Positions 36,607-60,885 of a stretch of 64,000 nucleotides of DNA are shown here, piece after piece. The notes beneath the pieces are model-generated. The model was given only the letters and a program-made list of their open reading frames with translations, did not search any database and was not told where the DNA came from. How positions within the stretch are numbered: the stretch's first letter is position 1; every line of letters starts with the position of its first letter. This DNA is from Tyto alba (Eukaryota > Chordata > Aves > Strigiformes > Tytonidae), in contig NW_024881282.1 in assembly GCF_018691265.1 (NCBI RefSeq), positions 24,076,899 to 24,140,898 of the forward strand, given 5' to 3'. The position numbers and the translations under genes were made by a program.

Positions 36607-36747
36607 AATCTTGGCTGATGGAAGACATTTCAGCTGGTGTTTTCTGCCAAAAGCATTATTTTCCATGCAGAAATCATACAACATGCCTGCTGTGGCATTA
36701 TGAGAGCATAAATGACTGTGAGAATGGTGCAGATGAGCAGAACTGTG
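36607..36747 (+). pseudogene. RXFP2: RXFP2 remnant: LDL-receptor class A exon
   Basis: Acceptor ...ttttctcag (AG at 36605-36606) and donor TGTG|GTGAGT (GT at 36748) are both intact and the frame is open. The peptide includes FCQKHYFPCRNHTTC and then NDCENGADEQNC, matching the RXFP2 LDLa spacing CQKGYFPCGN...DDCGNGADEENC. The fourth LDLa cysteine is tyrosine (HYES where the family has HCDG) and the module is two residues shorter, so the disulfide and calcium site are damaged even though the exon is readable. Phase 1 at the 3' end joins correctly to the next exon. Confidence 0.9.
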
Positions 36748-38385
36748 GTGAGTTCTGCAACATCTGTAAGTATACAGAAACAAAATCTGTTTGTGGGATG
36801 TGCTCCTCCAGTTAATACATACTAGTAGTCAGCAGATGACCCACAAGCCTGACAAGTCTGGGGTTTTCAGTGTAATTGAGTATTTTCTTTTCTTCAGTGA
36901 ATGAGGGAATTATGACATGCTGGTCAGCAAAGAAAACTGAGAGGCTGTCTAAAGGCATGCCCCGAGCAGACTCCAGTGATGAGATTCCTGTAGAATTTCT
37001 AATGTATTATCCTTTTCTGTGGACAGTGGGTAATCACTGCATATCTGTGTGGGGAATCCTTCAAAGTGGGTGCACGAACTCCTGCACGTAAGTTGGGGTA
37101 CTTATGCTCAGTAAGGCTTTCTACCAGGAGAAGTGAAGAATTCTTACTCTGTTATGATTTCAAGTGTTGTAAGAGTATTAGATATACACATATGTTGGTA
37201 TATGTGCATTAAACACATACACACTTGGTGGTGATCACACTACCATTCCTCTTTGTCTCATTGATCTCCACACTCACTCTCAATTCAAAAGGGCAATGAG
37301 GAAGTCAGATCAATGAGATCAATCTCCTTTTTTGGCTTATAAATGATCCCTATTTTGGAGCACGATTCCCTCCATATCACATTTGACTTCTTCTGTGACT
37401 CTGAAGTATGCTGGGTCAGAAGATAATGTGTCAACTTCACTGTCATCTCCTGTTTTGTATCCTCCCTCCCCACCTCCCTCCTAGTGAAGTTCTTACATCT
37501 CTTTCACTTCTTTTTCTTCTTTCTAGGTATTTCAAATCATACTTCCGTGCCTCTACTTTTTTGTTATCATTACCCCTTCAGCTCATTTTTGGACGTGATC
37601 ATTTGTATTTATGACTTTCCACATTGCACCGTTCCTATTTACCATTCATCTACATACCAGCTCCAAAATGCACTCTGGTGCACTAACACTGACTGCCCCA
37701 AAGATTGACATTTTCCGCATGTAATAGAAATTCCTACCTTCTGACAATCTATTAAAAAAAAAAAAAAGTCTAAGCTTCATAAATTTTAACTGATTTTCTC
37801 TCAAATCTCATATAACTTGTACAATTGCCTATAGATTTAGCTGGTCCAGTAATTATCTTTTCTCATCATTTTTCATGGGCTTGCCTGAAATTCATTTTCT
37901 GAAACTGGTGTAAACTTTCTGGGTTTTACTGACTTCCTTTCTGACTTTCTGTCTTGGCCTAGACCACTTCCATTATCATGTGTAGATTTTCACTGTAAAT
38001 AGTTTGTAACTCTCCATGCTATACCTCGTACTGCAGTATGAGTTTCTCCACTATATTAATCATTTTACTTTAGCATTTAGTTCTTTATATCGGCGCATCT
38101 AATAATATTTTGCATTAACATTAGATTTTTCTCTCTATTTCTCTCTCTGCCGTGTACACTTCTAATGTTCAATTTACATGAGATTTCTTAATTTGGGCTT
38201 ATAATTACTACTCATAATAAGCAGAAATACAATAAAAACAATCTGTTTGAAGATTTACTTTTGGTTCCATCCCATATAAGAAAACACATGTACCCCACAG
38301 GCAAATTGGCATTAATGTTCTGGTTTTCATTAAAAGCTGATAGACAATTTAAAGTACATCTGACAAACATTAACACTTTTTATAG

Positions 38386-38460
38386 GAGATAATAGTGGAT
38401 GGGCAAGTATCTTTGATATGGTTCATGGAAAGCCTAATTATCTGGATTTATCAGAAGAAT
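38386..38460 (+). pseudogene. RXFP2: RXFP2 remnant: linker exon
   Basis: Following an intact acceptor (tttttatag), the phase-1 frame reads GDNSGWASIFDMVHGKPN, closely matching GDTSGWATIFGTVHGNAN of the receptor. The exon is 75 nt and ends ...LSEE plus one base, the same length as in the mammalian gene. The expected donor GT at 38461-38462 is TT, so the splice site is gone. Read-through meets TAA at 38463. This linker is the segment that contacts the peptide ligand in relaxin receptors. Confidence 0.93.
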
Positions 38461-39418
38461 TTTAACTTAATCCTATTGCCCTTATTAATATACTTAAACT
38501 ATTTTACACTTCTAAGGCTTTTCAATGAATATATATATTTACTATAATTATAGAGATATCTGGAATTTTAGATACACTCAGAGAACTCCTTTATTTTCCC
38601 AGAGCTTTTTGCACGCATGCCAGAGCAGGGCAGAATAATGCAATGTGGAACTTACTTGTTAGTGCCAGGTTACAGATTTATAAATTTGCAGGAAAATGAT
38701 AATTACGTTTCTGGAAACTTTTGGAAAGTCAGTATTTGTTTTCAGCCCACTCAGGAATAAAAGAAAAAAGAAAGGCTTCCCTCTGAAACATTAAACAAAA
38801 AAATATAAAATCTTGAAATGTTTTATGTTGATCCCTTCTAAAACATTTCTTCCTGATGAAGAGTGATAAACCCACAAGTCTCAGCTCAGTCAAAGTACTA
38901 TAGCTCTGGGACAGTCCTTCAGATGGATTGCCAAGCTGGGGTAGCTAAAAAGCCCTTCCCTTAAATCCCAGAAAGCAAAGACAGTGTCTTGGCAAGCAAG
39001 AAGCAAGTTTAGATGTTGTGTTCCCTCTCATCAGCAATAAAATCAAAACATCCAATTTCTCAGTGAAGTGTAGTGACTTAAACAAATCTGCATTCTCCAG
39101 TGGAAACTGTTTCATCAGCAGCTTCTCAGATGTTCTCATTTATATGTGTATCAAGTACATGTTGTGTTTCAGTTGCCCTTATTGTAGCCTATGGACAGTA
39201 GGATATTAAAATTATTTATGTTTCACTTATGTTTGCTTTCATTACATGTAAAGCACTGCAGTTCTAGGAAGTGCAGCACTGGTGTTTTATAGCTTTCCTG
39301 ATAAGTGAACCTTACTAAGGTAATTTAGGGATGTTGCATCTAGATGTCCAATGCCTTTCCAAAAAGAGGTCTTGGAATGACACTCCATCTGATCAGATGC
39401 AGTTGGTGGGTCATATTA

Positions 39419-59247: not shown

Positions 59248-59929
59248 TCTATCCTAATCTCCTCTTTTTTTTTTTTTTTTTTTTTTGGCACAGGAATTAA
59301 GTGTTTCTGTTATTTTTGAATTGTGTATTTCAAAATGTACTTCCAAATAATTGCACCATATCCTATCCATCAGGTGTTCCCAAATTAAGAACCCTTAAGC
59401 CAATAGAAATGTGAAGCCAAATTCATACTTACTGTGGCCAACTTATGGTGCAATATGGTGAGACTGCTTTCGGGTGATTAACCCTTTAAAAACATATGAG
59501 ATCTTTTATTATTTCTCCTCTCTTTGTTCCAGTTAGCCAAGCCTACAAACTCTGCTTTCTGTCTGCATGTTAACTTCACATGGGAAAGATTTTATCTTGC
59601 ATGACTTCAGATGCTTATGGTGCAGATGTCTATGAACTAGTCACTTTGCACTCTCTTTATAGTCGATGAATTGTGCAACTTACCTAATTCTAAATAAGAC
59701 ATCCAAAGTACACTTAATGAATCATGTCACAAAAGTATCTGTTGAATTCATTGACTGTAAAGACAGCCAAGGCATGACTGGCTCCAATCTTCAGCTTTGT
59801 AAACGGCTGAAGTCAGGTAAAATGAATTTACCTTGTTAATATATAGTGGACGTGTTAAATTAGAAGAGGTGAAACCCAGGCAAGATATCAGAGATCTTCC
59901 GTGTATTTATTATATAGTGCCATGTATAT

Positions 59930-60265
59930 ACTATATAGTACCATAGACCTGCCAGGTCTCACACACTCTGCCCAAGATTCTTTCAGCTTGCTCCCGGCTG
60001 AAACTCCACCACGGCAGCATCTGTACCCTGAGCAGTGCCCAGACACTGCTGTAGCTTCTTTCCAGGGCTGGCTGCCAAATAATGCAGCGATTCAGTATTC
60101 TGCTGCCTGCAAAAGCCACCGTGCTGGCCACAGCCAGGGAGCTCCACCCTGCACCGTCGCATGCTCACAGGGGCCCTGTTCGGCAACACTTCCACTCTGC
60201 CAGCCTGACACCAGCTTCCACTCTCCTGTTTGTGACCAGGGGGCTTATAGCCCCATAGTACATGA
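59930..60265. other. GC-richer unrecognised block in the last RXFP2 intron
   Basis: About 330 bp is distinctly more GC-rich than its flanks and keeps frames open on both strands (59901-60272 + and 59983-60345 -). On the minus strand 'ggggctataagcccc' contains a TATA-like core, so an LTR fragment of a family I do not know is possible. No termini or duplication were found. Confidence 0.3.
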
Positions 60266-60391
60266 ATTCTGAGCCACAAACACAGGGTTGAATCATTTTT
60301 AAATGCCAGCCAAGGTTTGGCTAAATACGTACGTATATAAAGCATTTGATTGCTATTTTGCAGTAAACTGTAAAATCTATTCCTTAAATAG

Positions 60392-60885
60392 GTGCTGATT
60401 GTCTAAAGGGGGTGTATTTGCTCTTCACTGGAGTTTTTGATGTTAGATACAGTATAAAAAATATGCTCTGCTGTGGATAGAAAGTTTACCATAACATATT
60501 ATGGGGTTCATCATCATGCTACCTACAGAGGTGTCAGTCCTGTTGTTGCCATATCTGACATTGGCAAAGTATTTCCCCTCAGTAATATCCATCCTGGAAA
60601 GCAGCAGACTGTAGTGATTTTTAGATCCATGTGGATTGCTAGATTTGCCATAGCAGTAATCCCATTCTGGGATGAGGACATTTTTGGAAATTATTACAGG
60701 GAAAATTGTTACATTGAATTCTGATTGAATAGAAGAAATTGGAAGCAATGGGGTTTTCCTTGATATATTTCTTGATAAGTTTAATCTTTACTATGTTATA
60801 ATTATTGATTAATATTATTTTACTAGAGAAACTGACAGTCAGTCTACAGAACCTTCAAAGACAGATGTACTTTTGACTATACTAT
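60392..60885 (+). pseudogene. RXFP2: RXFP2 remnant: TM2-TM5 exon, multiply frameshifted
   Basis: After ...cttaaatag the family sequence runs through four frames. First ADCLKGVYLLFTGVFDVRY (family ADCLMGVYLFFVGIFDIKY; stop TAG 60478). After a roughly 7-bp loss near 60450: QYKKYALLWIES, TAA at 60492-60494 near the conserved ECL1/TM3 cysteine, MGFIIMLPTEVSVLLLPYL, and AKY for EKF. After a roughly 13-bp loss near 60570: FPLSNIHPGKQQTVV, IAVIPFWDEDIFGNYY. After a further shift near 60728: IEEIGSNGVFLDIFL (TM5 start). Similarity fades by about 60885 and a CR1 begins at 60965. TM6, TM7 and the tail are absent. Confidence 0.97.

Follow-up and report, generated by a model that had tools for sequence, protein, structure and literature searches.

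A 64,000 nt stretch of the Tyto alba genome (contig NW_024881282.1, positions 24,076,899 to 24,140,898; hereafter the window) contains 16 of the 18 coding exons of RXFP2, arranged in order on the + strand between 30,973 and 60,774 with their introns retained. The other two, c17 and c18, lie 2.2-3.9 kb beyond the right edge of the window and are broken as well. Read across c1-c18, these remnants, some of them damaged, give the domain order LDLa module, linker, ten leucine-rich repeat (LRR) exons, hinge and seven transmembrane segments. The features within the window are as follows.

30973..31012, + strand: c1, signal-peptide exon, running from ATG to G/GTAAGA; donor intact; completes the first codon of c2
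36607..36747, + strand: c2, LDLa module; in-frame 6-nt deletion, fourth cysteine gone, splice sites kept
38386..38463, + strand: c3, linker; donor lost (AA)
40987..41092, + strand: c4, N-terminal part of the LRR region; donor lost (AT)
42079..42149, + strand: c5, LRR exon; -1 frameshift near 42,106, donor doubtful
43620..43691, + strand: c6, LRR exon of 72 nt; splice sites kept
44592..44663, + strand: c7, LRR exon of 72 nt; donor lost (GA)
44987..45057, + strand: c8, LRR exon; -1 frameshifts near 45,029 and 45,040, possible +1 at a T run
46323..46391, + strand: c9, LRR exon; 3-nt deletion, donor lost (AT)
47089..47160, + strand: c10, LRR exon of 72 nt; splice sites kept
48190..48261, + strand: c11, LRR exon of 72 nt; TGA stop at 48,206, donor lost (TA)
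49544..49615, + strand: c12, LRR exon of 72 nt; splice sites kept
49716..49787, + strand: c13, LRR exon of 72 nt; acceptor lost (GG)
56695..56777, + strand: c14, last LRR exon; acceptor lost (AC), initial codons eroded, 11-nt insertion near 56,755
58519..58747, + strand: c15, hinge and TM1; frameshifts of +1 near 58,542 and +2 near 58,634, donor doubtful
near 58,676, + strand: 3-nt deletion in TM1 of c15, common to five bird models
60392..60774, + strand: c16, TM2 to the start of TM5; 7-, 13- and 8-nt deletions, donor lost (AT)
60,492 (TAA) and 60,726 (TGA), + strand: stops in c16

The original prediction, of fifteen ordered, single-strand exon remnants with introns, corresponds to c2-c16, and the start it gave, 36,607, coincides with the opening nucleotide of that exon series, in c2; its end at 60,885 was set too far, as c16 stops about 0.1 kb sooner, at a ruined donor. 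Nor is the gene whole within the window, as had been proposed: c17 and c18, sought without success in the final 3 kb, sit just past the edge, and c1 is an additional exon upstream of the earlier start. The c1 peptide ranks top of the 1,285 peptides of ATG plus 13 codons in the window, and top of the seven that are followed by an in-phase donor. LRR exons of 72 nt with split border codons, also predicted, are found in c6, c7, c10, c11, c12 and c13, whereas c5, c8, c9 and c14 have departed from this length through indels.

A tblastn search of the window with duck RXFP2 gave 17 HSPs at E<0.01, every one of which lies on the + strand in a colinear series spanning 36,606-60,806; human RXFP2 gave 14. 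Chance similarity was rejected, as 30 simulated Markov-1 windows yielded neither a match under E 0.01 nor any such chain, the best score being 27.3 bits. The most obvious competing identity, RXFP1, was likewise rejected, the human proteins scoring 590 bits (RXFP2) against 301 bits (RXFP1), and the top of the database matches listed consisted of bird and crocodile sequences named as RXFP2. A search of solved structures using one exon found no match, no Rfam families were detected in the window, and B3GLCT was represented inside it by weak matches only (best E 0.057), the gene itself being sited upstream.

The surrounding gene order is B3GLCT, RXFP2, FRY, all on the + strand, in agreement with the flanking genes that had been anticipated. 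B3GLCT was located through ten matches (C22:23,968,590-24,012,641, + strand) and FRY through five matches to PF14222 (C22:24,299,597-24,323,736, + strand); the C22 copy of PF14222 was assigned as FRY, and that on C67 as FRYL, by position. Retention of these ancestral neighbours argues against the locus being a spare duplicate of a working RXFP2 elsewhere in the genome. Among 71 matches to duck RXFP2 in the assembly there was no second RXFP2, intact or scattered over other chromosomes, although only 57 of the 382 first-look candidates were scored and unassembled sequence is beyond the reach of the search. The same search recovered just two of the 18 broken exons at the present locus, such that a second broken copy could escape it; a working one should outscore the other two loci of RXFP1/2 type when the duck protein is the query. 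One of these, on C67, is RXFP1, with a hinge-TM1 exon 95% identical to that of human RXFP1; the other, on C66, is a separate, intact-looking third gene about equally near RXFP1 and RXFP2, which may be RXFP2-like. Furthermore, the 120 database matches listed include no intact RXFP2 model from a non-waterfowl bird. A spare duplicate is therefore a very unlikely explanation.

Retention of introns and split codons also led us to reject a retrocopy. Several kinds of lesion together disable the coding frame: called against duck and crocodile proteins rather than the DNA of a relative, the lesions in the window comprise three stops, nine frameshifts and the loss of eight of 31 splice sites, and three further in-frame stops past the edge bring the total over c1-c18 to six. 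Residues that are otherwise invariant are altered at 48 of 236 positions, as opposed to seven of 236 in duck (Fisher p 1.8e-9). Changes have hit 20% of invariant sites, and new residues are present at 18% of variable sites. The protein of the Tyto alba RXFP2 locus has lost constraint.

That assembly or sequencing errors could mimic a broken gene is scarcely credible. The single-base shifts next to homopolymers in c8 are of the usual error type, but stops, deletions of 6-13 nt, an insertion of 11 nt and base changes in eight splice sites are also among the lesions; the altered invariant residues point the same way, and some lesions recur in models from assemblies of other birds. Some residual role, for instance in supplying RNA or a short secreted LDLa-LRR fragment, might be imagined on the grounds that many splice sites, those at the c1-c2 border among them, have stayed intact, and that the old frame has no stop ahead of c11. 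Judging by the sequence, such partial function would be extremely improbable, given the loss of an LDLa cysteine and of the c3 and c4 donors, and the fact that substitutions hit invariant sites as frequently as variable sites gain new residues.

The preference for RXFP2 over RXFP1, the B3GLCT and FRY flanks, the lack of a second RXFP2 among the matches, and the lesions mean that the locus is in all likelihood a unitary pseudogene of RXFP2. This bears out the original prediction of such a pseudogene in a bird. Any transcripts would be expected to be mis-spliced or cut short, in which case no LDLa-LRR-7TM receptor would reach the membrane. We put at roughly 0.93 the probability of the full reading: that the only RXFP2 of the assembly, lying between B3GLCT and FRY, is broken, likely makes no receptor, and probably owes this state to an early event that other non-waterfowl birds have in common with it.

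The evidence for the age of this event comes from five bird models labelled LOW QUALITY and repaired by the annotators, which were compared as proteins only (P0124, P0126, P0129, P0132 and P0156; the species being gannet, king vulture, maguari stork, Humboldt penguin and crested eagle). In a tree, the Tyto locus falls in one clade with these five repaired non-waterfowl models (support 100/99). The TM1 codon missing from Tyto is absent from all five, as seen in the proteins, an automatic count giving four of the five. The c17 stop in Tyto lies at a column where three of the five models are one residue short, and the first c18 stop at one where one model misses a residue and three end; the agreement with Tyto stops is at columns Y652 and R753, again as seen in proteins. 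Together these suggest an early lesion shared among non-waterfowl birds, a dating that leans mainly on one in-frame codon and on single-residue gaps read as dropped stops. Otherwise the lesions of the five models differ from those of Tyto. As no residue is missing from them at the c11 stop, for instance, many lesions appear to be private to individual lines. Given the shared clade and the loss of the same TM1 codon, the gene was probably already failing in the common ancestor of Tyto and the five other birds, with later hits added line by line.

The nearest unbroken relative is the waterfowl orthologue (P0121, P0123), which has 77% identity to the Tyto read-through over 545 columns. Its model is open, with LDLa, LRR and a full 7tm_1 domain, although the Mergus cluster, also from waterfowl, bears the LOW QUALITY label too. 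Beyond ducks, the database holds RXFP2 models from crocodilians, a turtle, tuatara and frogs. None of these lineages, ducks included, has testis descent, yet the gene persists in them and in duck is well conserved; hence a missing descent is insufficient by itself to account for loss, and the link to abdominal testes drawn in the original prediction was not borne out. The proposal that birds lost RXFP2 because they need no testis descent is accordingly an unlikely one. It draws on mammals, in which INSL3 and RXFP2 drive descent and both have been lost in Afrotheria (PMC6023123), and it is further weakened by the appearance of a gene annotated as RXFP2 among those regulated in the breast muscle of duck embryos (PMC10049352, Table 2).

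An association with the phallus, which waterfowl keep together with RXFP2, was not adopted, as ratites and tinamous are absent from the 120 matches listed; a phallus is present in both of these groups. When the owl genome itself was searched with Pfam Insulin, six matches emerged, spread over two contigs (C69 and C35); they are probably the insulin and IGF genes. This search recovered no relaxin-family gene whatsoever and is therefore silent on the presence or absence of INSL3. As a guess, the ligand, or the task it served, may have been lost or replaced. We would give rather less than an even chance to a more specific scenario, in which a single crippling of RXFP2 took place in the neoavian ancestor, by deletion of the codon beside the conserved GN of TM1 and by stops near the end of the gene, the chicken line lost the gene independently, and among living birds the receptor works in waterfowl only, with a role other than testis position.

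Loss of RXFP2 in birds is itself already known. A chicken pseudogene, found by BLASTn, was reported in a single sentence in 2012 (Yegorov and Good, PMC3310001); the surveys of avian INSL3 and RXFP2 loss mentioned in the original prediction exist to that extent. The chicken pseudogene resembles the Tyto case in being the same gene, in a bird, at the orthologous place and now noncoding, but belongs to another bird line, and the sentence on it describes neither exons nor lesions. The Tyto locus adds a full anatomical and syntenic counterpart; what is new for bird RXFP2 loss is the complete anatomy, the synteny, the copy check, the sharing of lesions and the contrast with waterfowl. In Afrotheria the same receptor gene has gone, but these are mammals and their loss is tied to testis position, a tie that fails in Tyto; a term search of PMC6023123 found no bird terms. 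The simple account, in which RXFP2 is gone because the testes do not descend, is not enough where ducks and crocodilians are descent-free yet have the gene, and waterfowl set against the other birds examined represent a natural test of the job of RXFP2 outside mammals.

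With the duck RXFP2 protein as query, tblastn of the window gave 17 matches at E<0.01; these all run colinearly along the + strand from 36,606 to 60,806. Human RXFP2 gave 14, and no match at that threshold arose in any of 30 windows simulated with the same first-order composition. Frameshift-aware alignment and inspection of splice sites set the borders of sixteen coding exons in the window, in a numbering of our own that counts coding exons (c1-c18). The original prediction of fifteen exon remnants in order on one strand is borne out by c2-c16. Exon c1 is an addition to these: its peptide ranks first among the window's 1,285 peptides of 13 codons starting at an ATG, and again among the seven with an in-phase donor directly after.

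Coding exons of the Tyto alba RXFP2 gene (c1-c16, window positions; c17 and c18, positions on C22, the contig holding the window at 24,076,899-24,140,898)
30,973-31,012, +, c1
36,607-36,747, +, c2
38,386-38,463, +, c3
40,987-41,092, +, c4
42,079-42,149, +, c5
43,620-43,691, +, c6
44,592-44,663, +, c7
44,987-45,057, +, c8
46,323-46,391, +, c9
47,089-47,160, +, c10
48,190-48,261, +, c11
49,544-49,615, +, c12
49,716-49,787, +, c13
56,695-56,777, +, c14
58,519-58,747, +, c15
60,392-60,774, +, c16
from C22:24,143,051, c17, just past the right window edge; TAG stop at 24,143,089 and a frame change
from C22:24,144,540, c18, just past the right window edge; TGA at 24,144,658 and 24,144,676

With the old frame and splice positions inferred via duck and crocodile proteins, the reading frame and splice signals of this locus are seen to be destroyed, and it would make no receptor. 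Within the window the old frame contains three stops (TGA 48,206, TAA 60,492 and TGA 60,726) and nine frameshifts (one in c5, two in c8, one in c14, an insertion of 11 nt, two in c15 and three in c16), a count that leaves out doubtful ones at the c5 end, the c8 tail and the c15 end. There are also in-frame deletions in c2 (6 nt), c9 (3 nt) and c15 (3 nt), and the LDLa module lacks its fourth cysteine. Donors are lost at c3, c4, c7, c9, c11 and c16 and acceptors at c13 and c14, making 8 of 31 splice sites (16 donors and 15 acceptors) when the c5 and c15 donors, both doubtful, are treated as kept; c17 and c18 retain all three of their inner splice sites. The c14 insertion (56750-56767) resembles an imperfect tandem copy of adjoining sequence.

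Constraint was assessed at 236 window-covered columns where ten non-avian RXFP2 proteins agree, at least eight being present. The window is changed at 48 (20%) and five other birds at between 25/206 and 44/235, whilst RXFP2 of duck stays conserved (7/236), with Oxyura at 8/231. At variable columns, the window has new residues at 55/303 (18%).

These five birds are Morus, Sarcoramphus, Ciconia, Spheniscus and Morphnus, which we take to be gannet, king vulture, stork, penguin and crested eagle. All five non-waterfowl models among the best 120 of 874 matches to the locus are labelled LOW QUALITY, the annotators' mark of a repaired frame, as is one waterfowl cluster (Mergus). They form a clade with the window (100/99; all birds 100/100). 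The codon after GN in the first transmembrane segment is missing from the window and, in the alignment, from all five models; an automatic count gives four, a difference probably due to a stork gap that sits in a different column. At the column of the c17 stop (duck Y652), Morus, Ciconia and Spheniscus have no residue; at the first c18 stop (duck R753) Spheniscus has none, and Sarcoramphus, Ciconia and Morphnus end. We infer that single-residue gaps at such columns are stops whose X the database dropped. However, none of the five lacks a residue at the c11 stop, other gaps, such as W601 in three of five, are no lesions in the window, and the c16 donor, AT in the window, appears from the eagle peptide to carry a different change at the same place; these points argue against one date for all lesions. 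An early first lesion followed by later private ones is likely. The repaired king vulture model starts with 27 aa matching window 36897-36977, in the intron after c2 (70%, E 2.9e-7), and so probably begins in old intron.

The introns hold repeats. One has two copies, 40106-40405 and 62471-62770 (97% over 300 nt), with a second segment at 40822-40947 and 63188-63313 (96% over 126 nt); we take it to be a young CR1-type LINE. A 340-aa frame at 62429-63448 (- strand) has no Pfam match. Reverse-transcriptase remnants (Pfam RVT_1), presumably also of CR1-type LINEs, lie at 14968-15504 (E 1.5e-9) and, in the intron preceding c14, at 51125-51610 (E 1.4e-9) and 51614-52360 (E 8.3e-13).

The duck query found eight birds, all waterfowl, among the best 120 of 1,178 matches, and in duck RXFP2 the LDLa, LRR and 7tm_1 domains are present, the last of these complete. 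Retention in waterfowl only is a lead, based on the longer models among the matches listed. The proposal that loss followed from birds' lack of testis descent is insufficient as an account, since database searches list RXFP2 models of ducks, crocodilians, a turtle, tuatara and frogs, none of which has descended testes. In duck embryo breast muscle, a gene annotated as RXFP2 ranks within the top ten up-regulated genes of one comparison (PMC10049352, Table 2), and the abstract of PMC9676923 places RXFP2 among predicted bird receptors. The available portions of PMC10877632, PMC12714730, PMC551602, PMC6504862 and PMC8244220 carry no statement of its loss in birds, and a term search of PMC6023123 found none of five bird or reptile terms. 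Among titles and abstract openings in the open literature, with subscription papers mostly outside, we noticed no paper on retention in waterfowl or loss in Neoaves.

The identification as RXFP2 rather than RXFP1 holds: human RXFP2 fits the window far better (590 bits, RXFP1 301), and 13 birds are among the best 120 of the 874 database matches, with duck RXFP2 at the top (E 2.9e-201). The expected neighbours are also in place on C22, all on the + strand, with ten B3GLCT matches upstream (23,968,590-24,012,641) and five FRY-family matches downstream (from 24,299,597). Nor was a second RXFP2 found among 71 matches in the assembly (1.25 Gb, 70 contigs), for which 57 of 382 first-look candidates were scored. 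Two further matches belong to the gene in hand (c2 and c18); as only these two of its own broken exons were listed, the search might miss some broken copies. A locus on contig C67 reaches 95% identity to human RXFP1, one on C66, about equally close to RXFP1 and RXFP2, is taken for the RXFP2-like gene, and the remainder are 24-39% identical. One exon match at the RXFP1 locus runs across a TAA that probably belongs to flanking intron. The placement of the presumed RXFP2-like gene on another contig than RXFP1 would, we assume, fit a separate chromosome 4A. PMC3310001 treats RXFP2-like as a separate gene and reports it linked to RXFP1 in chicken, where an RXFP2 pseudogene stands at the orthologous place.
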